Virus record (IMG/VR): IMGVR_UViG_3300045135_000660 | Location: 1-20,428 of that record | DNA: 20,428 bases | Strand: one strand, 5' to 3' | Source: a virus | Notes under the pieces: model-generated | Databases searched by the model: none | What the model was told of the DNA's origin: nothing | Seen by the model: the letters and a program-made list of their open reading frames with translations, nothing else | Shown: in pieces, positions 7,210 to 19,803 of the stretch | Layout of the letters: every line of letters begins with the position of its first letter | Position numbering within the stretch: the stretch's first letter is position 1 | Made by a program: the position numbers and the translations under genes

Positions 7210-7219
7210 GCGAATTAGG
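7210..7219. repeat. Direct repeat GCGAATTAGG, copy 1
   Basis: This 10-bp sequence recurs in the same orientation at 8240-8249. The two copies bracket the homing endonuclease gene; this copy includes its stop codon (minus TAA at 7217-7215). Both copies are followed by NGT. It may be a trace of insertion or chance. Confidence 0.4.
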
Positions 7220-8123
7220 CGTATTCCCAAGAATATCCGTATGCCGTTTTAGCCTTGCCTCTTGCGCAATTTGATATACCTATCCTACGTGCTCTAGTGT
7301 GGCCATTTTTTTGTAACCACTCTACCGCTTCTCCTAGTGACTTAAAGGTCATGCCATTTGAACACGCCACCTCTTTTGACAAAAAGTCAGACTTAGACCC
7401 GGCATACTGCGGTATGCCATCTCTACTCCAAGCATATCCGTATGCAGACCGGCATCTACCCTTGCAGCAGCTTATTATGTTTGCTGATACTGCCCTTGCA
7501 TGGCCTACGGACTTTAGCCAATGCACTGCGGCGGTAGTGCTATCAAAAACCATCCCATTTGAGCAATAAACAGCTACACCTAGGGTTGATGCTATTCTCT
7601 CCCTGTAATCTGGCAGCGCCTTCGGGGTGCATTCATAACTCCACGTATATCCATACGCACTAGCCCCATCTCTGGTACATGCGGATGATATACTAGATGG
7701 ATAAGCCACACTTATTCCAGAGGCTATTAGCCAATCTTGCGCCTCGCAGCACCCATCAAAAACCATGCCATTTGAGCAGTAAACCCTTTTCCGCGTTCTA
7801 GATACTAATCCAGAAGTCCCATCCCCTCCGTTTGTCATATTTACTAACGCAACACCTTCAGAGCTAAGGCTTGATATTACGTCAACCTCCATATCAAAAG
7901 CATCTGCCTCAGCCAATCCGTCCTGTAATATTTCAACCTCGACGCCGTTCTTTGCTGCGATAGATTTCCAATAATCACTCCTTCCGCACTTATTCCAAGC
8001 TCTATCACCCTTCCCCTTACCCACATAGAACACGGTGCTATCTGTGAAGCGGCGGTGAATATAAACATAGAAGCCCTCCGGCTTGACTTCACTCCACTTA
8101 GATGTCATATGTATCTTAGTCAT
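7215..8123 (-). CDS. GIY-YIG homing endonuclease with three C-terminal DNA-binding repeats
   Basis: A 302-residue protein with ATG at 8123 and SD AGGAGAT 9 nt upstream. The N-terminal GIY-YIG module is visible as FYVYIHRR (18-25) and FYVGKGKGDRAW (32-43), the acidic DMEVDVI region with E79, and LVNMTNGGDGTSG (93-105). The rest holds three copies of a roughly 52-residue unit with the pattern CSNGM.F....A..WL...G...IS.C..G....AYGY.W, at about 114-163, 185-235 and 251-302; these resemble NUMOD1/IENR1 repeats of homing endonucleases. The gene is free-standing, not inside an obvious intron, and is flanked by a 10-bp direct repeat. Such enzymes nick or cut a target allele and spread their own gene; the target is not shown by the sequence. 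Confidence 0.9.
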   Translation of the reverse strand: MTKIHMTSKWSEVKPEGFYVYIHRRFTDSTVFYVGKGKGDRAWNKCGRSDYWKSIAAKNGVEVEILQDGLAEADAFDMEVDVISSLSSEGVALVNMTNGGDGTSGLVSRTRKRVYCSNGMVFDGCCEAQDWLIASGISVAYPSSISSACTRDGASAYGYTWSYECTPKALPDYRERIASTLGVAVYCSNGMVFDSTTAAVHWLKSVGHARAVSANIISCCKGRCRSAYGYAWSRDGIPQYAGSKSDFLSKEVACSNGMTFKSLGEAVEWLQKNGHTRARRIGISNCARGKAKTAYGYSWEYA

Positions 8124-8223: not shown

Positions 8224-8232
8224 GATTAGGTG

Positions 8233-8261
8233 TTGACAGGCGAATTAGGGGTGTGTAGGGT
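8233..8261 (+). promoter_or_regulatory. Possible promoter for the cell-wall hydrolase gene
   Basis: A perfect TTGACA (8233-8238) lies 17 nt before TAGGGT (8256-8261), a poor -10. It precedes SD GGAGG and the ATG at 8286. The TTGACA belongs to a GTGTTGACA motif shared with other intergenic gaps, so it may be a binding site rather than a -35 box. Confidence 0.35.
8240..8249. repeat. Direct repeat GCGAATTAGG, copy 2
   Basis: Second copy of the 10-bp repeat at 7210-7219, on the upstream side of the homing endonuclease gene and inside the spacer of the plus-strand promoter candidate. Confidence 0.4.
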
Positions 8262-8285
8262 GTGGGTAAACGGAGGATACACCAA

Positions 8286-8681
8286 ATGACCATCACCCTA
8301 ACCTGCCTAGCCCTTGCAGCATGGCACGAAGCACGAGAGCACTACACACAGCCAGACGCAATGGCCGCTGTTGTCGCTGTTGTGCAGAACCGTGTGGATG
8401 ATCCGCGATACCCTAACACGGCTTGCGAGGTTATTGCGCAACCTGGTCAATTCCCGTGGTATACATCAGCAAAAGCACCTGCTACCAATGGCGCACCCGA
8501 CGAATGGGCTTGGGATATGGCACAGGCCGTTGCGCTGCATGAAATGTCAGGCTATGGGCTGGATATCACTAGCACGCACTTTCACACTGTAGGGAAGCCG
8601 CAATATTGGGTTGATGCGTATCAGCTTGATGGTGCAATAGGTGGGAACGTGTTCTACACGAATGATACCCGCTACCCGTAG
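8286..8681 (+). CDS. SleB-type cell-wall hydrolase (endolysin)
   Basis: A 131-residue protein. I choose ATG at 8286, preceded by GGAGG with good spacing, over an in-frame GTG at 8262 that lies upstream of that SD. The sequence matches the SleB/cell wall hydrolase_2 pattern: LAAWHEAREH with the likely catalytic Glu15, AAVVAVVQNRVDDPRYPNTA (27-46), ACEVIAQPGQFPWY and a late STHFHT with aromatic residues after it. The family cleaves peptidoglycan as a lytic transglycosylase or amidase-like enzyme; late in infection it would release progeny. No signal peptide is seen, so a holin should deliver it, but none is evident nearby. It is the only structural-region gene of this size on the plus strand apart from the terminase-portal island. 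Confidence 0.88.
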   Translation: MTITLTCLALAAWHEAREHYTQPDAMAAVVAVVQNRVDDPRYPNTACEVIAQPGQFPWYTSAKAPATNGAPDEWAWDMAQAVALHEMSGYGLDITSTHFHTVGKPQYWVDAYQLDGAIGGNVFYTNDTRYP

Positions 8682-8787
8682 CTTGACCACCCCACCTAAC
8701 CGCGCTAACCTACCTATATAGCGGCAACAACAGAGGGCAAGATGACCACCTTTAGTAATTGATAGGAGGTGTTCCCGTATCTGCCTT

Positions 8788-8807
8788 GGGCCGCTATTAA
8801 GCGGCCC
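8788..8807. terminator. Hairpin between convergent genes, possible bidirectional terminator
   Basis: GGGCCGC-TATTAA-GCGGCCC is a perfect 7-bp GC-rich stem with a 6-nt loop. It separates the convergent hydrolase gene and the beta-helix gene ending at 8815. On the plus strand TTGTGCTTT follows, only a weak T-run; on the minus strand there is none. Just before it is an SD-like TAGGAGGTG with no ORF worth calling. Confidence 0.5.
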
Positions 8808-8814
8808 TTGTGCT

Positions 8815-9981
8815 TTATCGCTCAGACACCCCGACAAGACCACCTAACTCGGCTGTCACGTCCCTATTGGCTGATGTGTTCTCAATCCAGATTTCGATCC
8901 GGTCGTTTTCTTCCAATTGTCCGAAAGCGAATATCTCGATACCTTCAGCGCGCCCAGCAGCGTTAAGGGTTCGCACCCCAGATGTTGCAAGGTCAATATA
9001 CCCAGCCGCACTATCATCCCATTGGCGCACGATCAACGAAACCTGATCACCGTTACTGCCAGAAATCGTCAGCAATGCCAGTACTTGAACCTCGACATCT
9101 TGCGTCGATATGTACACGAACTCGTTATCGTTAGCGCCCGTGAACCATTGGAGGTCGCTGTAGGTCGTTACCCCGGCAAGCTTGTTTGGGTTAGCGCCCC
9201 CACTCAGGACTGTTACCGCTGGCGTTGTTACCGACCATTGCCCGCCTACATAAGTGTTGCGTACGCCTTGACAGTTCCTAAACCGCGCCTTAACGCTTTC
9301 AGATGGCATATTTGGGAACGCATCATACCCACCCGGCACACGCACGCCCTCCATAGAGAACGCAGCGTCGTTGGTGATATCAGCAGCGGCAATGTCAGTA
9401 AACACAGCACCGCCCAGTTGAAGCGCGTTGAAGTCTGAGCGGAATGACCCGTTGATAACAAGCGCCGTGCCTTCTTTAAATACAGGACCAGTCATTGCAC
9501 CAATGATAATAGCCGTGGTCGAGAAGAACCCGCCTGCCCATGTTCCAGACAGTGTTAGACCCGCAGTGCAGAAGATGAGCGCCAAATTTGTCCACAGCCC
9601 TTGCCTGTACGCCGTTAGCTCGCCCAAAGACGCACAGTTAGTGAAGTTTGTATCTATGCACTCGACAGCGCCCAGATTGCCCGCGTTATTGAGGTTGAAT
9701 ACGGAAGGCGATGTAAACGTAAGACCCCTTACGAACAAGTCGCCGCTGTAAGGCTCGGTCCCTGTTACGAAGATCGACCCCGTTGACGTCAAGCTAGAGA
9801 TCGTGACGCCGTGACCTTCTATCTGCAAGCCACCTTGAGGGACTGTAATGCTACCCGCCCCTAGATCAATAGCGCCATCGATCTTGTACAGAGTGTCGCT
9901 GCGCAGGTCGCCAGTTAGCTCGGATGCCGACTTTACGATGCGTTCATATACTGCAACATTGCCACTTCCGTAGCTGAACAT
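8815..9981 (-). CDS. Virion-associated beta-helix-like protein
   Basis: A 388-residue protein with ATG at 9981 overlapping the previous stop as TAATG. Residues about 30-200 contain regularly spaced short strands and turns (SITVPQGGLQIEGHGVTI, then FVRGLTF, CIDTNFTNC), as in right-handed parallel beta-helix folds of pectate lyase type used in tailspikes and fibres. The C-terminal part (about 270-388) looks like a separate beta-sandwich with DGDQVSLIVRQWDD-like spacing. No catalytic motif is evident, so enzyme activity is not claimed. It closes a three-gene unit that starts after the capsid terminator, which suggests a head or neck surface fibre, or an appendage. Low similarity to anything I can name. 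Confidence 0.65.
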   Translation of the reverse strand: MFSYGSGNVAVYERIVKSASELTGDLRSDTLYKIDGAIDLGAGSITVPQGGLQIEGHGVTISSLTSTGSIFVTGTEPYSGDLFVRGLTFTSPSVFNLNNAGNLGAVECIDTNFTNCASLGELTAYRQGLWTNLALIFCTAGLTLSGTWAGGFFSTTAIIIGAMTGPVFKEGTALVINGSFRSDFNALQLGGAVFTDIAAADITNDAAFSMEGVRVPGGYDAFPNMPSESVKARFRNCQGVRNTYVGGQWSVTTPAVTVLSGGANPNKLAGVTTYSDLQWFTGANDNEFVYISTQDVEVQVLALLTISGSNGDQVSLIVRQWDDSAAGYIDLATSGVRTLNAAGRAEGIEIFAFGQLEENDRIEIWIENTSANRDVTAELGGLVGVSER

Positions 9982-10253
9982 TACTCGGCCTCACCATATA
10001 CCGTGGTAGACGACACTACAGCAGCACTAGGAATAATCATCCAAATGTCGCGCGCAGCACCCTCGCGTCGATATAGTTCATTAAACGGAATGTATTGTGT
10101 TTCACCCGGAGCCGGGGTAGCGTCACCAACATCTGTTACCACAACATTGATTTCACCAACTAGCCGCTCGGTTGCAGCAAACACAGTCGTATTACTGCCA
10201 ACCTTTGTATAGGCGGATTTATTAATCGCCGTAGCAAACGAACGAATAGCCAT
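9981..10253 (-). CDS. Small virion-like protein, unknown function
   Basis: A 90-residue protein with ATG at 10253, two nt after the preceding stop; its SD GGAGG lies in the last codons of that gene. The N-terminus is basic and helical (MAIRSFATAINKSAYTKVG), followed by beta strands (LVGEINVVVTDVGD) and an IWMIIPSAAVVSSTTVYG segment. No signal peptide or cysteine. The gene lies between another small beta-rich protein and the beta-helix protein. A role as trimeric adaptor or attachment base for the beta-helix protein would fit, but this is inference from gene order only. Confidence 0.6.
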   Translation of the reverse strand: MAIRSFATAINKSAYTKVGSNTTVFAATERLVGEINVVVTDVGDATPAPGETQYIPFNELYRREGAARDIWMIIPSAAVVSSTTVYGEAE

Positions 10254-10255
10254 AA

Positions 10256-10603
10256 TTACACCTCCAACAGTGACGCGGTAAGTCCCGTGCCACCAGTCAT
10301 TGCGATAGTTCCGGCAAGGTATGCCTTGATATCCGCCAGATCCACAATAACAGTGTCTCCAATGCCGATAGACGCGAACGTATATCCGCCGGTCAGGTCA
10401 ACGTCACCAATACCCGCGACGTATTGAGTGGTTGCGCCGTCACCGTCGATGTTCGGGGTAAGCGCGCCCGCAGTGTCGTTACGCAGCACTAGGTATTGCG
10501 TCTTGCTGGCGTTGTAGGTGAATGTGTCAGTCCCGTCCAGCGTGGTTTCGGTGACGGTTACGGGATCAATGGAAGTAAGGGAGGTTGCAGCGATAGTAGC
10601 CAT
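10256..10603 (-). CDS. Small beta-rich protein, possible second decoration protein
   Basis: I choose ATG at 10603, preceded by GAGG about 10 nt upstream; an open frame extends 78 nt further through the promoter region and is not used. The 115-residue product MATIAATSLTSIDPVTVTETTL... is rich in Thr, Gly and Asp and built of beta-strand-like segments (TQYLVLRNDTAG, DTVIVDLADIKAYL). The size, lack of Cys and acidic composition resemble phage decoration or capsid-surface proteins, but I recognise no family. It begins a transcription unit after the strong terminator at 10682-10708, with a TGCTACAAT extended -10 just upstream. Confidence 0.65.
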   Translation of the reverse strand: MATIAATSLTSIDPVTVTETTLDGTDTFTYNASKTQYLVLRNDTAGALTPNIDGDGATTQYVAGIGDVDLTGGYTFASIGIGDTVIVDLADIKAYLAGTIAMTGGTGLTASLLEV

Positions 10604-10633
10604 TAGGTATGCCTCATGTGTGATTTGTTGTTG

Positions 10634-10642
10634 ATTGTAGCA
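10634..10642 (-). promoter_or_regulatory. Extended -10 promoter after the capsid operon
   Basis: On the minus strand TGCTACAAT has the TGn extension and TACAAT (5 of 6). It lies about 30 nt before the ATG at 10603 and downstream of the capsid terminator. A TGTCAACAC motif (10656-10648) sits just upstream, in the -35/spacer zone. Confidence 0.55.
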
Positions 10643-10681
10643 GAAAAGTGTTGACAGCGCACATGGTGGGCGACACCACAT

Positions 10682-10708
10682 AAAAAAACGGGGCCATAAC
10701 AGCCCCGT
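10682..10708 (-). terminator. Rho-independent terminator after the major capsid gene
   Basis: On the minus strand ACGGGGC-TGTTATG-GCCCCGT forms a 7-bp stem and is followed by a run of seven T. It lies 24 nt after the capsid stop codon and separates the capsid operon from the unit starting at 10603. Confidence 0.92.
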
Positions 10709-10732
10709 CTAATCTCATCCAAAGCCTAACGG

Positions 10733-11764
10733 TTAGGTCAGGGTGCCGCGACGAAGCGTGTTAGGCTTCTGGCAGTAGTACAATGGATAGGCATGCACAT
10801 GGTACTTAGCAAAGCGCGGAGTGGTCGGGAATGCAGCGTCAAGTTCCTGCACGGCATAGACCGACTGGCCGGGAGTGTTGACATAAGGCATCCACTCATC
10901 AGCAGGGGCCATTGCCTTGACAAAGATACCGTCACCACCAACCACGAAGAACTTAGCTTCGTTTACAGCGATTGCGATTTCCGAATTATCATCAGAACCA
11001 CGGTAGTTGTGGAAGGTGATGCCGCCGAACTCAAACTCCGAGAACGGGTCAACGCCACGAAGCTCAGCAGCCGATTGCCAGTTGATCCAGAACTTCTCAA
11101 CATTCGGGTGGGTTACCAGAGCGTCAAAGAAGTCGTCACCTACCAGAGCGTGAACCTTGGACTGACCGATAACCCAAGCACCTTTGGCTGAGCGCATGAT
11201 CGAACGGGTCAGGTCACGGCAGATGCCAGCTACGTCAGTAGTGGTTACATCAAGCTCGAACGAGGTTGCAGTGTCCTGAGTTACGCCAAACTCGGTATAG
11301 TAGCTGTAGTAAGTCGAGCCGTCAGCAGGGTCCAGAGCCAGACCTTGAATAGCAGCAAGACGCAGATACTCTTCGGTGTATTCGACCTTCTGGCGCATCT
11401 TAGCAAGACGGTCAGCAACTTCACGCTGCACAGTCATAAGTTCGCTTTCGGTGCCAAACTCACGCAGACCGGAAACCTCCGATGCCCAAACGGTGTCCTG
11501 AATTGCAAGACGCGGGATGGTCAGCGACAGGGTGTTACGGTCATAACGCTGGTTTTGATCCGGTGCAGATCCGCGCTCAGAGAACCCGATCAGCGACAGA
11601 GTGTCTTCCTTGCGGTCGATCATAACAGTTTTCTGACGAACCGGCTTAGGTTCAAACAGGTTCATGGAACCCAGCATCTGCGGGTTATAGTCCATGTTTT
11701 CGACGGTGCTCGAAAGCTCCATCATGGTAAAGGCGTCTGCCTTAAAAACGTCCATGGTTGCCAT
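10733..11764 (-). CDS. Major capsid protein (lambda gpE family)
   Basis: A 343-residue protein with ATG at 11764 and SD AGGAAGGA. Features of the phage major capsid protein E family are visible: an N-terminal helix after MDVFKADAFTMMELSSTVE, MDYNPQMLGSMNLFEPKPV with the following KTVMIDRKED strand, IPRLAIQDTVWASEVSG, and late GDGIFVKAMAPADEW plus a C-terminal VHAYPLYYCQKP. It forms the HK97-fold shell with the decoration protein encoded just upstream (11784-12143). It follows protease/scaffold and decoration genes as in lambda (C-Nu3-D-E). Only one cysteine pair region is near the C-terminus and no crosslinking motif is seen. It ends at a strong terminator, matching the high dosage needed. 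Confidence 0.95.
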   Translation of the reverse strand: MATMDVFKADAFTMMELSSTVENMDYNPQMLGSMNLFEPKPVRQKTVMIDRKEDTLSLIGFSERGSAPDQNQRYDRNTLSLTIPRLAIQDTVWASEVSGLREFGTESELMTVQREVADRLAKMRQKVEYTEEYLRLAAIQGLALDPADGSTYYSYYTEFGVTQDTATSFELDVTTTDVAGICRDLTRSIMRSAKGAWVIGQSKVHALVGDDFFDALVTHPNVEKFWINWQSAAELRGVDPFSEFEFGGITFHNYRGSDDNSEIAIAVNEAKFFVVGGDGIFVKAMAPADEWMPYVNTPGQSVYAVQELDAAFPTTPRFAKYHVHAYPLYYCQKPNTLRRGTLT

Positions 11765-13207: not shown

Positions 13208-13341
13208 GCTGTCATTATATCCATTGGGGGTGTGCTAACCAAATCACCGGGCCTCACGGTGCGCTCCCTCCAAAAAAACCATGACCGGGAACACCCTATT
13301 TCCACGCCGTGGAAGTCATTTCTTACGATTGTTTCATCCAT
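13204..13341 (-). CDS. 45-aa protein, unknown, in head operon
   Basis: ATG at 13341 is preceded by AAAGGGG at 6 nt spacing and overlaps the stop of the lipoprotein gene by 8 nt; its own stop overlaps the protease ATG as ATGA. An in-frame ATG 48 nt upstream exists without such context. The product begins MDETIVRNDFHG, has SRSWFFWRERT in the middle and ends PPMDIMTA. No signal peptide, no complete membrane segment. I do not recognise it. Tight coupling on both sides and a good SD support that it is real; it may mainly couple translation between neighbours. Confidence 0.55.
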   Translation of the reverse strand: MDETIVRNDFHGVEIGCSRSWFFWRERTVRPGDLVSTPPMDIMTA

Positions 13342-13585
13342 GACGATCCCCTTTGAGTAGCGGGATGATGCAGTAGGTAGACGTTGCAATCACGTCAGGG
13401 AGAGAAAAGATCGGGTCAATCAGTTCCTTGGTTATACCAGCAACGATGGCTAATTCACATCCATGCCCATCAAGAACCTCATCACCGACAAAGCCAATGC
13501 CCAGACCAGCCCCAGCGTGTAGCACCTTATCGGCACCACAGGCTGAGAGAAGGATTAGGAAGGCAAAAGGGAGTAGACGGGTCAT
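13334..13585 (-). CDS. Small lipoprotein (YfiM/DUF2279-like)
   Basis: An 83-residue protein whose ATG overlaps the fibre gene stop as ATGA. The N-terminus MTRLLPFAFLILLSACG is a lipoprotein signal with lipobox LSAC and Cys16 as the lipidated residue. The mature part starts GADKVLHAGAGLGIG; D19-K20 with H23 and later GITKELIDP (K53, E54, D57) and D64 recall the pattern D-K-x-x-H ... K-E-x-x-D of YfiM/DUF2279-type proteins. It would be anchored in a membrane of the infected cell, most likely the outer membrane periplasmic leaflet. Being co-translated with a head fibre protein is odd for a lipoprotein; superinfection exclusion or lysis (spanin-like) roles are possible but unproven. It is too long and not proline-rich enough for a typical Rz1. 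Confidence 0.7.
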   Translation of the reverse strand: MTRLLPFAFLILLSACGADKVLHAGAGLGIGFVGDEVLDGHGCELAIVAGITKELIDPIFSLPDVIATSTYCIIPLLKGDRHG

Positions 13586-15900
13586 GCACTCGCCTCCGCA
13601 ATGCCAGCGTCACCAAGATCATCTGCCCAGATACGGAACAAGCTGATCGTTCCCATGTAATCATAGCCAAGCTGTAGGTCAGTGCTGGACAGATCAGGCA
13701 AAGCTACAGGCGTCGTGTCAGCAGTCAGTGCAGTGCCATCGACAGCGCCGTTGATGAACGTAGAGCCGTGGCGGGACGCGATGTTGAACGGGACGTTGAC
13801 GCCGGGGCTGTAGGTGTTTGCACCAGACCCAACCTCATCGTTTGTCCCAGAGTTTGTTTGTTGGAAAATAAACTGCCCCGTATCACTTCCCGAAACAACC
13901 GAAAGCCTGTCAATTATGCGGTTATTGTTATCAATATGCCAACGGAATGGGACGACATTGTTCCCGTCAGTGACTTCCGCATACGTCATTTCCCCCTGCA
14001 TCTGGATGCTCACAGATAGCGGGTTGATCTCTTTGACGGAGATGTTGTCTATATAAAACACAGAAGTGCCAATGCCAGTAATAGAGATACCTGACCTATT
14101 AACAGTAGGGACAACAAAAGCTGTATGTGTGGCCGTGCCATTAAAAGCGCCAAAAGTATCAATACCCCCACCAACATTTATACCAACCGTGCAACCAGCA
14201 CCTGACGTGTAATTCATATCAAAAGTGAGCATATAGACACGACCAGCAAACATTGTTGGCAACCCTGTCTGGTCAAGGGATGTTCCAGTTGGATTGCTAA
14301 ATGAAGCCACACCACCACTAATCGTCCAGCCAGCCCCCTTCGTCCAATCCGTATCACTATCAAACGTGCCATTCGTCACCAGTTCATCACCAATGACAAC
14401 AGGCGAAGGCCACGGCAGGTTAGCCGCAGGCACAGTCAGGGTTTCAGCGGCACGGGTGACTGTTGCGCCACTGGTCGGAATGTAAGACGAAGGGGTGGAG
14501 CCTGCTTCAATCTGTGCGCCGTAAATCAAGATGGATGACGTTCCGTCACGAGTGATTGAGGCACCGCCATCAGTGTTGCCCAGATAGATACGCAGTTGCC
14601 CAGATGTGTCAGCGGCGTCTGTCGTAAATGTTATACTGCAACGATACCAACCATCGCCAAAATCTTTGATTGTTCCAGATAGCCCTGTGTCGGATGTTCC
14701 AACAGACCCATTAACCAAGTCAAACCACACATTACCGTTTGCTGGGGTTGTTAGAGACACAACACCGAGAGCCAAGAAGTCTGATTGATCCGCCTTTGCA
14801 AAGACACTCGCTGTATAGGCTGTTGACGTGGACACCGTGATTGCCTTTGCCACGCCTACAGTGCCTGTGGCTCCACCAACAGAGTCAACGGATAGTGTCT
14901 CGGCATTTGTATTGCCATCTGGTGATATTGAGGTATTGGAAGAAACTACAGAGTTAAGTCCTCCCGTAAGCCAACTCGCATTCGTAAAGTCCTCCGAATA
15001 CGTCAGCAGATTAGTCCTCGCCTCACTCTCCACGAGCAGACCTTTGTTGACCCACGCCGAGCCATTATAGACGTGATGCCCACGGCGAGGCAGGTAAACA
15101 GCAGAAGAAGTCGTAGGAACATAGCTGTCGCCACGGTCAGGGTTGTTGACCATGCCGCCAAGGTCCGAGCGGTAGACGTGTGCGCCCCAAGCATAGACGG
15201 AGGAAGGCAGAGAGGGGAGAGTGCCAAGTGCACCAAAAGAACCCCTGTAAGACTTACCTGCAAGCCCCTCATACGTCAACTCGACCAGCCACCAACCGTC
15301 TGAAAACCCAGTTACTGTAGCTCCACTAGAACCAGTCAGGTAAGTAAAGGAACCATCCGTCAGATTAACATCAATTGACAGTGGGTTAATGGCGTCAGTC
15401 AGATTTCTAATCGCAACTTGGTTCGCAAGTCCATCACCCTCATTTGACTTTAGCCATACAGAAAACGTAATCTTATCGTTCTGATTGATAGCCCCACCAA
15501 GAGTTATGCCCCTGATTTCTGGGGCTGAAACGGAGGTCGCTTGGATTAAATTAGCCGTCTGCGTACCATCAGGAGCAACAGCAGCGTTAGCCGTGACAGA
15601 AGTGTTAAACTTAGTCCAAGCCGCGTTATCAAACTGCTCACTATACGTCAGCAGGTTATGCGGCCCCCACTTCAGCAGCCCGTCGCTGTCCACCATCGTG
15701 GCGTTGCCGTTGCGGGTGTGGGTAAAGAGGTCGTCGGAGGTTGTTGTCGCCCCACCGCTGCGGTAGTAGTCCTTGGACATATCCGCGACCAGCTCGGGGT
15801 TAAAACCGTTCACTGAGTAATCAAAACCCGGCACACCCAACCCGCCAAAATAAAACCCCTCGCCTATAGCTACAGACGAACCAAATACAAACTCACTCAT
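13582..15900 (-). CDS. Head fibre / spike-like protein with carbohydrate-binding-type modules
   Basis: I choose ATG at 15900, 9 nt after AGGGG, giving 772 residues; an in-frame ATG at 15909 lies directly at the SD. Four beta-rich parts are visible. Two related modules begin NLLTYSEQFDNAAW (about 82-95) and NLLTYSEDFTNASW (about 297-310), each with a later APDGT/SPDGN and a GWW/GWYRCSI strand and ending near YVPTTSS or YIPTSGATVTRA. A third module (about 504-622) begins LVTNGTFDSDTDW, a carbohydrate-binding pattern. A C-terminal LamG-like region spans about 625-772. Similar modules occur in proteins annotated as phage head spike fibre. The gene overlaps portal by 8 nt, so it is expressed with the head genes. 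It may bind host-surface or environmental glycans. Confidence 0.82.
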   Translation of the reverse strand: MSEFVFGSSVAIGEGFYFGGLGVPGFDYSVNGFNPELVADMSKDYYRSGGATTTSDDLFTHTRNGNATMVDSDGLLKWGPHNLLTYSEQFDNAAWTKFNTSVTANAAVAPDGTQTANLIQATSVSAPEIRGITLGGAINQNDKITFSVWLKSNEGDGLANQVAIRNLTDAINPLSIDVNLTDGSFTYLTGSSGATVTGFSDGWWLVELTYEGLAGKSYRGSFGALGTLPSLPSSVYAWGAHVYRSDLGGMVNNPDRGDSYVPTTSSAVYLPRRGHHVYNGSAWVNKGLLVESEARTNLLTYSEDFTNASWLTGGLNSVVSSNTSISPDGNTNAETLSVDSVGGATGTVGVAKAITVSTSTAYTASVFAKADQSDFLALGVVSLTTPANGNVWFDLVNGSVGTSDTGLSGTIKDFGDGWYRCSITFTTDAADTSGQLRIYLGNTDGGASITRDGTSSILIYGAQIEAGSTPSSYIPTSGATVTRAAETLTVPAANLPWPSPVVIGDELVTNGTFDSDTDWTKGAGWTISGGVASFSNPTGTSLDQTGLPTMFAGRVYMLTFDMNYTSGAGCTVGINVGGGIDTFGAFNGTATHTAFVVPTVNRSGISITGIGTSVFYIDNISVKEINPLSVSIQMQGEMTYAEVTDGNNVVPFRWHIDNNNRIIDRLSVVSGSDTGQFIFQQTNSGTNDEVGSGANTYSPGVNVPFNIASRHGSTFINGAVDGTALTADTTPVALPDLSSTDLQLGYDYMGTISLFRIWADDLGDAGIAEASA

Positions 15901-17176
15901 CTTCGTCATCCCCTAGTGCGTTGCGCCAATCGTTTGCCGCAGTCTCCAATCCCGGCGAAACACCCGCCTCCGTTAGCTCGTTTACAACCTGATCAAACGC
16001 CAACTCCACAGGGAACACCTGCGCGTTAACAAGGTCAACATATCGCTTAGTAATAGCAGTCCCGATATCTTGCAGCGTCTTGCCGTCCTGCTGCCACAGA
16101 GAGCGCCAGTTATAATGTACTTCGTCTGGGATGTTGCCCAGAGCGGTCTTAACGATCATATCGTCCAGCACTCGCATAGCCGGGGTGATTTCGTTCTCTT
16201 GATTTGACTTGATGCGGTCATAGTAGTCGATATCGTCGGACTTACCCGCATCACCTAGACCACCTGTCTGCACACCAAACAGCCGTGAACGCGGGATCTG
16301 AGCCGCGCCAGACGCCGCCATTTGGAAGCGGTCGATGATGTCTGGAAGAGTGGCGAACTGGATTGTTTTCTGTTGCCAATCCTCGTCTTCCATATCAAGG
16401 ATCAAAGCGCCGTTAGTACCCTTGGTGTACATCGCAAGCTGCAACTTAGCTTGAAGCGCCGCAAGCTCGTTAGGGTCTGTGACTTTCTGCATCAGACCTT
16501 GAATTTTCATAACGTCAACTTTGGCTTCCATCGTCATATCCGCGACGTTAGCCATTACCGCATCAAAAGCCTTCAGGTCGTCCATCATGGTAGCCACGAC
16601 AGACTGACCCAATCGCCCACTGTTAGCATATGACTTGCGCTTACGGCCAACGAAATGCACAACCCTACTAGGGTGGATACGTAAAATAGAAGCACCAGCC
16701 CCCATCAAGTCGTACCATTTCGGCTTATTGTACTGCGGCGACATTGGATCGTATTCGTATTCGCCCTCACTGATCTGCCATCGGTCCACCTTGGCGAGGA
16801 ACCGTAGCTCGCGCGATGCAGCTGGAATGAGTGGATCTCCGTGGTTGCCCCCATCGTCGATATACAGATAACCGTCACCGAACAACCGAGCGTCCTGACG
16901 CGCTTCTAGTACCTTCTGGCGAACCTCGTGAGTGGCTTCTACGGCCTCGATCTTCGTGATCTGATCAGCTTCCGCTTGCCATTCACGCCACATGCGCGTT
17001 TCGTCTTGCGCTGGCATATCAACAACACGACTAATGAGCGCCGATCCGTTATAGGCGTTCAATAGCTGTTCGTCCGAGTATTCAACACGGGTGTAGGTCG
17101 AAGCCTTGAACTTGCTTCGTGTGGATGTCATACCACCAGCTAGCGCGGTAAACGTGTCTGTGAATGTATGCGTCAT
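15893..17176 (-). CDS. Portal protein (DUF1073 type)
   Basis: A 427-residue protein encoded after terminase and before the head genes. It shows the DUF1073 portal pattern: an N-terminal segment with YSDEQLLNAYNGSALISRVVD (32-52), PAQDETRMWREW, FGDGYLYIDDGG, and the late block RLFGVQTGGLGDAGKSDD (about 296-313) followed by YYDRIKSNQENEITP. Twelve copies form the channel for DNA packaging. Some members of this family are fused to the anti-CBASS phosphodiesterase Acb1; here the chain ends in an acidic DDEDE tail and no paired HxT motifs are seen, so no such activity is claimed. ATG at 17176 has no SD; a promoter whose start should fall at the ATG lies directly upstream. Confidence 0.93.
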   Translation of the reverse strand: MTHTFTDTFTALAGGMTSTRSKFKASTYTRVEYSDEQLLNAYNGSALISRVVDMPAQDETRMWREWQAEADQITKIEAVEATHEVRQKVLEARQDARLFGDGYLYIDDGGNHGDPLIPAASRELRFLAKVDRWQISEGEYEYDPMSPQYNKPKWYDLMGAGASILRIHPSRVVHFVGRKRKSYANSGRLGQSVVATMMDDLKAFDAVMANVADMTMEAKVDVMKIQGLMQKVTDPNELAALQAKLQLAMYTKGTNGALILDMEDEDWQQKTIQFATLPDIIDRFQMAASGAAQIPRSRLFGVQTGGLGDAGKSDDIDYYDRIKSNQENEITPAMRVLDDMIVKTALGNIPDEVHYNWRSLWQQDGKTLQDIGTAITKRYVDLVNAQVFPVELAFDQVVNELTEAGVSPGLETAANDWRNALGDDEDE

Positions 17177-17182
17177 GGGGTG

Positions 17183-17211
17183 ATTGTAAATGGGGTGTTG
17201 ACACGCCGCAA
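17183..17211 (-). promoter_or_regulatory. Portal promoter, probably leaderless
   Basis: On the minus strand TTGCGG (17211-17206) is spaced 17 nt from TACAAT (17188-17183). Only CACCCC separates the -10 from the portal ATG, so transcription should begin at or next to the A of ATG, and no SD exists. Confidence 0.5.
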
Positions 17212-17225
17212 ATAGGCGGTTGACA
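17197..17225. repeat. Paired GTTGACA direct repeats, candidate operator
   Basis: GTTGACA occurs at 17197-17203 and again at 17219-17225, a 22-bp period (about two helical turns). Between them CGCC-GCAAATA-GGCG forms an inverted repeat (17204-17218). The array lies between divergent portal and collagen-like genes and overlaps both promoter candidates. Confidence 0.55.
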
Positions 17226-17249: not shown

Positions 17250-17307
17250 ATTCTCAATCGCCAGTGACCATTGGCAAGAAAATAAAGACTACACAAGGAC
17301 TATATTC

Positions 17308-17880
17308 ATGAAAACTATCATTACAGCAACGGTAACTGCCCTCCTAATGACCACAGCAACGACAGCAACGGCAGCTCAAAGCTGCACAGTTAAGACAGAT
17401 ACAGCTGGTAATCAGATTAAGAACAATAAGTGTGATCTGTTTGTAGGTGCCACTGGTACTAAAGGGGACAAAGGGGACAAAGGTGACACAGGTGCTACTG
17501 GAGCAACGGGTGCTCAAGGTATCCAAGGTCCTAAAGGTGACACAGGTGCTACTGGTGCTAAAGGAGATAAAGGTGATAAAGGTGCCCAAGGTATCCAAGG
17601 CGTACAAGGTGAGAAAGGAGATAAAGGTGATAAAGGTAATGATGGAAAGGATGGGAAAGACGCTGTTGCACCTCTAGGCTCCCTCTCCTTTGCAGCGGCA
17701 ACTGCCTCATTCTCTGGGGACGGTATCGGCTTCGGTCTCTCAGACTCAAACTATGGTGGTCTTGAGGGTTCTATCGCCTTGGGTTTCGACTTAGATTATA
17801 ACTGGCGTATAGTCGCAGGAGTTACAACAGACTTTAAGAAAAGACACGCTGCATCAGTAGGTGTTGGTTACAGCTTCTAA
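17308..17880 (+). CDS. Secreted collagen-like protein with outer-membrane-anchor-like C-terminus
   Basis: A 190-residue protein with ATG at 17308 and SD AAGGA 8 nt upstream. Residues 1-23 form a signal peptide ([16 protein letters not shown]..., cleavage likely near TATAA/QSC). A short head with Cys26 and Cys42 follows. Residues 47-118 are 24 uninterrupted Gly-X-Y triplets (GDK, GAT, GIQ types), only one with proline. The last 72 residues ([19 protein letters not shown]... ending VGVGYSF) have alternating hydrophobic strands and a terminal Phe, as in outer-membrane barrels and YadA-type trimeric anchors. I infer a trimeric surface protein displayed by the infected cell. It is on the opposite strand to the structural genes with its own promoter, so it is cargo rather than a tail fibre. 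A secreted rather than anchored product is the main alternative. Confidence 0.78.
17446..17661 (+). repeat. Gly-X-Y coding repeat
   Basis: Twenty-four tandem 9-nt units of GGN-NNN-NNN, with near-identical runs such as GGGGACAAA and GGTGACACAGGTGCTACT. Close identity between units makes copy-number change by slippage or recombination likely. Confidence 0.9.
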
Positions 17881-17891
17881 AGGAGACGAGA

Positions 17892-17933
17892 ATGACACAG
17901 ATTACAGCAACTGAACGTAGAGATATCGAATAA
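17892..17933 (+). CDS. 13-codon ORF after the collagen-like gene
   Basis: ATG at 17892 follows AAAGGAGACGAGA, whose SD begins right at the collagen stop. The peptide is MTQITATERRDIE and then TAA. It is either a translated micropeptide, a coupling leader or the remaining start of a decayed gene. The SD is better than many in the window, but the length is too short to judge coding content. Confidence 0.25.
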   Translation: MTQITATERRDIE

Positions 17934-17963
17934 GTATATCTCACACACCTCTCTGCCCTCACA

Positions 17964-17980
17964 GCGGTCTTCTAAACCGT
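17964..17980 (+). other. tRNA-Arg(TCT)-like anticodon arm fragment
   Basis: GCGGT-CTTCTAA-ACCGT folds as a 5-bp stem (one G-U pair) with a 7-nt loop carrying TCT with T33 and purine 37, as in tRNA-Arg(TCT). No D-arm precedes and no T-arm directly follows, so it is a fragment at most. Confidence 0.35.
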
Positions 17981-17984
17981 TGGC

Positions 17985-18060
17985 GTAATAATAGTGAGAT
18001 GGTTGCACAAATCGCTCATAACGGGTTAGGTCGCAGGTTCGATCCCTGCCGCTTCCACCA
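17985..18060 (+). pseudogene. tRNA-Met(CAT)-like sequence with encoded CCA and degenerate 5' acceptor strand
   Basis: The 3' part is tRNA-like: T-arm GCAGG-TTCGATC-CCTGC (18033-18049), acceptor strand CGCTTCC, then A and CCA (18050-18060). Upstream, loop CTCATAA (18015-18021) has anticodon CAT with T33, flanked by a stem with one A-G mismatch, and a 3-bp D-stem GTG/CAC with GG in the loop plus T8-A9 is visible. However, the bases at the 5' acceptor position (GTAATAA) do not pair with CGCTTCC; GGAAGCG is expected and not found nearby. It is therefore a decayed tRNA, or a host tRNA 3' end carried as an attachment site. It overlaps no good ORF. Confidence 0.5.
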
Positions 18061-18096: not shown

Positions 18097-18123
18097 TTGA
18101 CGTCGTTATGAAGAGTGTATAGT
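18097..18123 (+). promoter_or_regulatory. Possible promoter for the 77-aa gene
   Basis: TTGACG (18097-18102) is 15 nt before TATAGT (18118-18123, 5 of 6). The spacing is short; the -10 alone with TG upstream (18116-18117) is the better part. Confidence 0.35.
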
Positions 18124-18148: not shown

Positions 18149-18382
18149 ATGGCCCATACGATCCAAGCTTGCGACACCTACCCCAACCGCTACATGTATA
18201 CAGTCTGGAGCGATTGCGGCGACATTGAGATCGGGCGCAACTACCCTACGGCGGCGGATGCACGGATGTCAGCAGAGTTTGGGTTTCGCCAATTCGTCAA
18301 TAATGGTTTTAAACATATTGGGCCTGCCGCTGAAAACGACTACGTGGATATTGACGATATTATGCTGGAGTTGGGGCTTTAA
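18149..18382 (+). CDS. 77-aa protein, unknown function
   Basis: ATG at 18149 is preceded by the strong SD AAAGGAG. The product starts MAHTIQACDTYPNRYMYTV, has aromatic and acidic residues throughout and ends in an acidic helix DDIMLELGL. No signal peptide or membrane segment. I do not recognise a family. It is convergent with the large terminase gene and overlaps it by 4 nt through the shared TTAA, so both genes end there. Being on the strand opposite the structural operon with its own signals, it is probably a cargo or early-expressed gene of the same island as the collagen-like protein. Confidence 0.7.
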   Translation: MAHTIQACDTYPNRYMYTVWSDCGDIEIGRNYPTAADARMSAEFGFRQFVNNGFKHIGPAAENDYVDIDDIMLELGL

Positions 18383-19803
18383 ACGGCGCCAACCCAGCTA
18401 CGGCCCGCTGCAACGTCAGTAACGGCATCAAACATCGGATCCAATTGGTCGTCGTGCTTACCATTGGGAAACGCGCTAGCCTCTGACAGGAAATCACTTA
18501 GCCAATCCGCATTGATGGGCAGGAACACGTTGCCAGTTTCGACCATAGGGGCAGCATCTAGCCCGCGCGTTACCTTGTCGATATTGCGTTTGATCCCCTT
18601 AACCGGGATGCCTTCGCGGGATAGCGTTTGGATCAAGCCCGTTCCGCTTACCTTATCTTCCACGTTCATAGACCGCAGATAGCCTAGTTCCTTGCTGGGC
18701 ATTGCCTTGTGCTTCTTCCAAAACGCCCTAGCCTGTGTCAGTAGGTCAGGCGCTTCCCACTTGCCCCTGATTTGGTCTATCAGATACTTACGGCCCTCTT
18801 GATCAGATCCCCAGCACTGGAACACTGAATAGTCGTTTTCCTCTTTGGTCTTTTGCGCCGTGTCCGCATAGATCGTGCGATTAACTAGCTTAGGCAACAC
18901 AACAGCGCCTGACGTTGGAGTGTCTGACCAGTAACGCCACCATGCATCTTTCAGAATACCACCCCCGATAGGCGCTGGGCGTTGCATATACTGACCAGCA
19001 AAAACGTAGCTGTTAGCTTTCTCCTTGCGGCGTAGGGTGTCTAGTGTGAAGTTTGAGTTATCAGGCCAGAACGAAGCCCCGTCAGGCTTGATAGCCTCAA
19101 TGCAAAGGTGCTCCCATTCCTCCCCGTTGCCACCGTCTAATAACCACCCACTCAGATCTTCTTCGTGTAGTCGCTGCATGATAACGATGATAGGGGCGGA
19201 TTGGTTGTTTAGGCGGCTTTCCATTGTGACCGAGAACCAATCTAGAACATTGCGCCGCATGGTGTCAGAAGTTGCCTCAGAAGCTTTATGCGGGTCGTCA
19301 ATAATGATTGCCCCGCCAAATGTTTCCCGCAGCTTGCCAGCCCCGAACCCAGTGATAGTGCCTTCTGCACCTGTTGCGTATACCACGCCGCCTTGTTTGG
19401 TCTGGAAGTGGTCTTTTGCGTTACTGTCCGTTCTCAGGGTGGGCGCACCGAATACATCCGCCCATGCTTCGTGCTGCATGATAGCGCGTGTTTCACTGGT
19501 GTTGGATGCGGCAAGGGTCTTAGAGTAACTGGCGTGGATGAATTCGCTATCCGGCCAATTCCCCATGCACCACGCCATAAACGTCTTAACCGCCAGTTCC
19601 GTCTTGCCGGATCTAGGCGGGATATTGATTATCAAACGGGTGGTTTGCCCGGTTACGCATCGCTCTAGCGCATTACACAGATCGACGTGGAAATCGGCCT
19701 GCACCATATCAGACCCACGACGAGCCTTGAACATGTATTTTGCAAAGGCCAGAAAATCCGCCCGTAGAGTGGCTATTTCATCCGGTTGTAGGGGTTCGGT
19801 CAT
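18379..19803 (-). CDS. terL: Terminase large subunit
   Basis: A 474-residue DNA-packaging motor. The ATPase domain shows Walker A PPRSGKTE at 62-69, Walker B AIIIDDP at 165-171 and a coupling block IVIMQRLHEEDLSGW at 206-220. The C-terminal nuclease domain has Asp313 in YADTA, Asp324 in ENDYS, and the HDDQLD cluster at 450-455. The protein docks on the portal, hydrolyses ATP to pump DNA and cuts the concatemer. ATG at 19803 follows the small subunit stop by 19 nt. The packaging strategy (cos or headful) is not deducible without phylogeny; no obvious cos site was recognised in the window. Confidence 0.96.
   Translation of the reverse strand: MTEPLQPDEIATLRADFLAFAKYMFKARRGSDMVQADFHVDLCNALERCVTGQTTRLIINIPPRSGKTELAVKTFMAWCMGNWPDSEFIHASYSKTLAASNTSETRAIMQHEAWADVFGAPTLRTDSNAKDHFQTKQGGVVYATGAEGTITGFGAGKLRETFGGAIIIDDPHKASEATSDTMRRNVLDWFSVTMESRLNNQSAPIIVIMQRLHEEDLSGWLLDGGNGEEWEHLCIEAIKPDGASFWPDNSNFTLDTLRRKEKANSYVFAGQYMQRPAPIGGGILKDAWWRYWSDTPTSGAVVLPKLVNRTIYADTAQKTKEENDYSVFQCWGSDQEGRKYLIDQIRGKWEAPDLLTQARAFWKKHKAMPSKELGYLRSMNVEDKVSGTGLIQTLSREGIPVKGIKRNIDKVTRGLDAAPMVETGNVFLPINADWLSDFLSEASAFPNGKHDDQLDPMFDAVTDVAAGRSWVGAV

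Follow-up and report, generated by a model that had tools for sequence, protein, structure and literature searches.

The gene at positions 17308-17880 of the analysed DNA appears to encode a collagen-stalked surface protein with a divergent trimeric-autotransporter anchor, and it moves alone between unrelated phages as a mobile accessory cassette. We place the probability that its product forms a surface-anchored collagen trimer at about 0.8. The window, as we call the whole stretch of DNA that was analysed, is an entire linear IMG/VR virus record of 20,428 bases; it is probably a fragment, from which lifestyle and host cannot be read. Its relevant features are:

15893-17176, - strand: portal gene, flanking the collagen gene
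17198-17225, + strand: two TTGACA hexamers (at 17198 and 17220), weak candidates for a promoter of the gene's own
17295-17299, + strand: Shine-Dalgarno-like AAGGA, 8 nt upstream of the ATG (direct reading)
17308-17880, + strand: entire gene for the protein with collagen stalk and YadA-anchor-like end (190 aa plus stop), ATG start (reading of the open frame, dN/dS)
17308-17373, + strand: signal-peptide-like N-terminus, residues 1-22, with K2, a hydrophobic core and ATA/A (rule-based heuristic)
17374-17445, + strand: mini-head, residues 23-46, with the Cys pair C26 and C42 (direct reading)
17446-17661, + strand: collagen-like stalk, residues 47-118, 24 G-X-Y triplets with eight KGD steps
17662-17877, + strand: YadA-anchor-like C-terminal domain, residues 119-190, with a terminal Y-x-F (profile and fold evidence)
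17985-18060, + strand: tRNA-like 3' half with a CTCATAA loop, T-arm and CCA (sequence reading)
18379-19803, - strand: terL gene, flanking the collagen gene on the other side

Organization of the collagen gene and its product

The frame at 17308-17880 is a genuine gene and not a chance frame, because dN/dS across five related C-termini ranges from 0.08 to 0.19, which denotes strong purifying selection on the C-terminus. It stands alone on the + strand, with both the portal and terL neighbours on the - strand. The first-pass annotation had described a signal peptide-like start, 24 triplets and 72 C-terminal residues of which the last is Phe, all in one frame opposite to the structural operon, and these elements are indeed present. 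A promoter scanner found no acceptable -10 upstream of the gene in the window.

Two scans of viral contigs revealed eight further loci of six genotypes (L082, L083, L084-L086, L087, L088 and L096), L084-L086 being one genotype on three contigs. They come from several samples and represent different phages, all uncultured. The 72-residue C-terminus is kept in these relatives with 66-95% identity to the window, that of L082 being identical, and the L087 copy carries an in-frame stop within the anchor. A scan of viral sequences based on the collagen repeat returned mostly unrelated repeat proteins, and the canonical anchors varied too much for their alignment to be of use in scanning contigs.

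The proposed signal peptide was positive in a rule-based test, a heuristic and not a trained predictor, for the window and four relatives. The rule gave no cleavage site for the L083 N-terminus, where AKA/G fits by eye, such that an export-type N-terminus is found in every distinct readable member (the window, L083 by eye, L084, L087, L088 and L096). The N-terminus alone, used as a query, found no relatives. The Cys-pair pattern of the mini-head is also seen in L084, L087 and L088. In the stalk, the G-X-Y run is uninterrupted and exactly 24 units long; the repeat is not due to chance, because 2000 shuffles of the protein reached at most 7 consecutive G-X-X units. The Pfam Collagen model matches the window protein with E=6e-17, and Asp/Ala and Lys/Thr/Gln abound at the X and Y positions. 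Such a composition, rich in KGD, is typical of bacterial collagens, which lack hydroxyproline. The relatives differ in stalk length, L083 having as few as 13 triplets and L096 roughly 77.

The stalk resembles those of the surface proteins Lcl of Legionella (NF046116) and Scl1/Scl2 of streptococci, which are also collagen-like and KGD-rich; however, it is essentially the repeats that match, and Lcl and Scl have no YadA-type anchor, the Scl proteins being LPXTG-anchored in Gram-positive bacteria. The NF046116 model gave the window protein 53.6 bits against a cut-off of 500, which leaves it outside that family.

Fold of the C-terminal domain

The likeness of the C-terminus to a YadA anchor, proposed from the sequence alone, was borne out by both profile and fold comparisons. 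The PF03895 (YadA_anchor) model matched the window protein to its last residue with 15.0 bits (E=0.026), short of the cut-off of 22.7 bits, so that we do not count the protein as a formal member of PF03895. When eight records were searched one by one, six had a match at the gene, with E-values between 4e-4 and 0.014, none of them over the cut-off; L096 matched in addition (6e-4), whereas none of 48 other collagen-bearing viral records had such a match. The same search at permissive E-values also matches 7 of 14 named control genomes, so that these E-values are weak when taken alone. A profile of the five C-termini was then aligned with hhalign to one of eight canonical phage YadA anchors; the alignment reached the final residue with a score of 30.4 (P=1.7e-5), whereas the best scores were 17.5 among 300 column shuffles, 21.2 among 300 shuffles preserving odd and even positions, and 11.3 for the reversed profile.

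An AlphaFold monomer built with the five-sequence alignment (pLDDT 76.5) is predicted to have a helix at 8-15 and strands at 22-29, 35-45, 49-58 and 63-71 in domain numbering; in the whole protein, the helix lies at about 125-132 and the strands at about 139-146, 152-162, 166-175 and 180-188. The same elements were predicted for L096, the most divergent member (pLDDT 71.9). The model thus has the short helix, the four-stranded meander running to the C-terminus and the terminal aromatic residue that characterize trimeric autotransporters. In the predicted strands, lipid-type residues alternate with small or polar ones (permutation P 0.003-0.016). With both models, ranks 1-5 of Foldseek against the PDB were taken by Hia (3emo, 2gr8, 2gr7), AtaA (9vnj) and YadA (2lme) with probabilities of 0.93-1.00; the E-values of 0.013-0.46 are weak, the domain being short. 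Against viral models (BFVD), the matches near the top included the "agglutinating adhesin" of phiEco32 and further YadA-like proteins from phages. Searches of PDB sequences by phmmer and hmmsearch with the C-terminal domain gave nothing relevant, so that Hia and YadA were reached by fold comparison alone.

A divergent form of the trimeric-autotransporter anchor is therefore a well-supported prediction for this C-terminus, since hhalign, AlphaFold, Foldseek and the strand alternation are all independent of the PF03895 model. YadA, Hia and AtaA share with the window protein the signal peptide, the C-terminal anchor of one helix and four strands and the aromatic end, and are its best fold matches in the PDB, but they carry heads on a coiled-coil stalk, whereas the passenger of the window protein is a short collagen helix, its anchor scores below the PF03895 cut-off and the gene is phage-borne.

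Mobility and genetic context of the relatives

By blastn, the collagen gene is the sole DNA common to the window and each of L083, L084, L087 and L096. As it is often the only DNA that the window and its relatives share, the gene moves alone between unrelated phages. Different heads and stalks also become joined to the anchor by recombination, because in L083 (7713-8219) the similarity to the window starts at the end of the collagen, with DNA 94% identical over the C-terminal domain and an unrelated N-terminus. Window positions 17470-18060 are identical to positions 1-591 of L082 over 591 bp, L082 starting inside the collagen repeat, and the identity stops exactly at the CCA, the last base of the tRNA-like 3' half. 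After the CCA, L082 goes straight into a terminase of another family, and the window has first a 319-bp stretch with a 77-aa ORF. No tRNA was accepted by ARAGORN in this half, and Rfam gave only sub-threshold matches to tmRNA and plastid tRNA-derived families. The breakpoint at the CCA looks like an attachment or recombination junction.

The junction of terL and portal had been suggested as the place to search for homologues, but it is not a conserved site: its terL side is common to L082 only, and most relatives lie elsewhere. In six of the eight related contigs the collagen gene is found among replication or nucleotide genes, not tail genes, a setting which fits the view that the product is not a virion protein. 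In L096 and L087, both with a T7-type RNA polymerase, it is downstream of the DNA polymerase and directly before a gene for a 136-aa protein, the two 136-aa proteins being 44% identical to each other. That of L087 matches the Pfam S-adenosylmethionine lyase model with E=9e-6 and 26.1 bits, just under the cut-off of 28, and L084 has a related SAM-lyase-like gene about 3.9 kb from the collagen gene, likewise under the cut-off (E=1e-4). These SAM-lyase-like genes, of the anti-restriction type, are located at 8244-8651 in L087, 9925-10332 in L096 and 3284-3682 in L084. The L083 collagen gene lies between the ribonucleotide reductase and ThyX genes, and in L084-L086 it is two small genes upstream of ThyX.

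L088 has a head-tail operon akin to that of the window, and its collagen gene, again on the opposite strand, has a head-completion-like gene on one side and a fibre-like gene of 388 aa on the other, in the slot which the window gives to a cell-wall hydrolase. Upstream of both slots lie 70 bp that are 90% identical and contain a TTGACA...TAGGGT element. The promoter-like form TTGAC[AG]-17-TAG[GT]GT is present at 8225-8294 and at 18097 in the window and at 7543-7611 in L088, upstream of different + strand accessory genes (the cell-wall hydrolase, the 77-aa ORF and the L088 collagen gene, respectively), and it is possibly a common moron promoter. A 2.5-kb block from the 388-aa fibre-like gene to part of the capsid gene (window 8739-11243, L088 8340-10844) is 97.7% identical, compared with about 73-90% in the remaining DNA common to both, which points to a recent recombination of the fibre/capsid block.

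Searches beyond these contigs covered several sources. In MR14, the phage with the closest terL, no collagen-stalk gene is annotated in the stretch examined. Searches of annotated phages by tblastn with the whole protein and the C-terminus gave no match, the canonical anchors being too distant and the collagen filtered. Scans of bacterial genomes found no chromosomal relative and therefore no host or donor can be named; a search of plasmids for relatives gave nothing credible.

Related phage proteins and proposed function

The combination of parts had been considered unusual for a phage, a view that did not hold. A hand-written consensus of the YadA anchor, used only to reach real records, led to 100 annotated phage records, and four of the eight records sampled encode a protein that combines a signal peptide, collagen, a coiled coil and a YadA anchor: phi32_119 of phiEco32 (22 triplets), SP058_00135 of Salmonella phage FSL SP-058 (44), CPT_Munch_428 of Salmonella phage Munch (21) and that of Erwinia phage RF1 (17). 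In phiEco32 and SP-058, both Pfam Collagen and YadA_anchor score above their cut-offs. Like phi32_119, the window gene joins a signal peptide, a G-X-Y run and a YadA-type anchor, sub-threshold in its case, in one gene. In proteins of the phi32_119 type, however, a coiled coil separates the collagen from the anchor, and they score well over the PF03895 cut-off where tested, whereas the window family has a divergent anchor and a Cys-paired mini-head and occurs in uncultured phages. The coiled coil with its segment of the "AMANIPQ" kind is absent from all aligned members of the window family, in which the collagen runs directly into DAVxPLGSLSF, and this places them as a variant beside, and not within, the phi32_119 subgroup. 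The window family is a divergent, coiled-coil-free variant of an overlooked class of phage proteins already in databases. We found no description of the collagen and YadA-anchor combination in phages in the open-access literature. The YadA-type genes of SP-058 and SP-076 adjoin the dUTPase, away from tail genes, in phages reported to be virulent (PMC3728262), and PF03895 occurs in 19 N4-like genomes, where it was discussed as a virulence gene (PMC10654107).

We propose that the mobile accessory gene is a "moron" whose product would be a minimal surface protein similar to trimeric autotransporters. The signal peptide would direct Sec export, three C-termini would form with BAM a 12-stranded (3 x 4) barrel in the outer membrane, and the collagen segment would pass outward and fold into a triple helix about 20 nm long, given roughly 0.29 nm for each of its 72 residues, with the Cys-bridged mini-head at its outer tip. 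Infected (or lysogenised) cells would make the protein, which would not be a component of the virion. The export signal and the anchor fold are supported by prediction; we infer the trimer, its insertion in the outer membrane, the timing of its expression and its function. The most likely benefit would be an altered surface of the infected cell to which other phages, or the progeny on debris, adsorb less, with cell-cell sticking as an alternative benefit; blocking of adsorption is nevertheless a tentative assignment, at odds somewhat short of even.

The same surface protein could instead serve in host adhesion or aggregation, as an adhesin of lysogenic conversion comparable to the bacterial trimeric autotransporters, a role that we regard as rather unlikely. 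It would agree with the annotation or discussion of phage YadA-anchor proteins as adhesins or virulence genes (PMC3728262, PMC10654107), and with the fact that Scl and Lcl are adhesins, a profile similarity that concerns the stalk only. However, relatives occur in phages that have replication genes together with a T7-type RNA polymerase, no lysogeny gene was seen in the stretches examined, the canonical carriers SP-058 and SP-076 are reported to be virulent, and durable adhesion of the host would be of little gain to a lytic phage. An effect during infection is favoured over long-term adhesion of a lysogen because of the lytic-looking phages, the replication genes and the SAM-lyase-like neighbour.

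It is improbable that the protein is a tail fibre of the collagen type or a decoration of the virion, with a hydrophobic N-terminal stretch that would not work as a signal peptide. Phage collagen repeats are mostly in tail fibres, the PHROG matches of the stalk are tail fibres (phrog_6320, phrog_366) and in the window, L082 and L088 the gene has structural genes as neighbours. A larger and different cyanophage protein with a "YadA domain" was detected in virions (PMC9146016), which illustrates that YadA-like domains can be structural. The PHROG matches, however, centre on the Gly-X-Y repeat that both kinds of protein share, and the window protein has in addition a signal peptide and an end whose fold matches membrane anchors, not fibre tips. 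The export-type N-termini of all readable members, the strand opposite to the structural operon and the relatives among replication or nucleotide genes do not correspond to a tail module without a signal peptide; virion proteins lacking the signal peptide were looked for among the readable distinct homologues and none was seen.

It is still less probable that the C-terminus represents part of an ordinary monomeric beta-barrel of the OmpX/OMP_b-brl type, or a domain related to one. PF13505 (OMP_b-brl) does score as well as YadA_anchor on the single window sequence (E=0.025), but across five members it matches one and YadA_anchor three, the four strands in 72 residues are too few for a closed monomeric barrel, and none of the best fold matches is an OmpX-type structure. 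That the gene is a relic without function or an artefact of assembly, as the in-frame stop of L087 might suggest, is hardly credible given the low dN/dS between diverged copies and the intact state of the gene in the other contigs, which stem from several samples and belong to different phages.

A broader and rather doubtful possibility is that phages exchange a single-gene, self-exporting collagen "cloak", which would trimerise in the host outer membrane during infection and shield receptors or glue cells, and which in lytic phages would belong with the SAM-lyase-like gene to a takeover and counter-defence locus. Such a role, if true, would be one for which neither collagen nor trimeric autotransporters have a description. 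Until now, YadA-anchor genes of phages have appeared in lists as isolated "virulence" or "adhesin" genes; the lone mobility between phages of different types, the purifying selection and the setting of replication and SAM-lyase-like genes in lytic-looking phages make a role during infection, be it surface shielding, superinfection exclusion or aggregation, likelier than a benefit to a pathogen. A canonical example is borne by phiEco32, which infects E. coli.

Two other genes of the window deserve mention. A 302-aa protein encoded within the head-gene operon (7215-8123, - strand) may be a homing endonuclease of the GIY-YIG/NUMOD type; its Pfam matches are weak and sub-threshold, and L088 has no equivalent at the same place. 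Just downstream of the gene for the 775-aa tail protein, an 83-aa protein (13334-13585, - strand) with a lipobox-like N-terminus (LLSAC) is probably a second exported protein of this phage.
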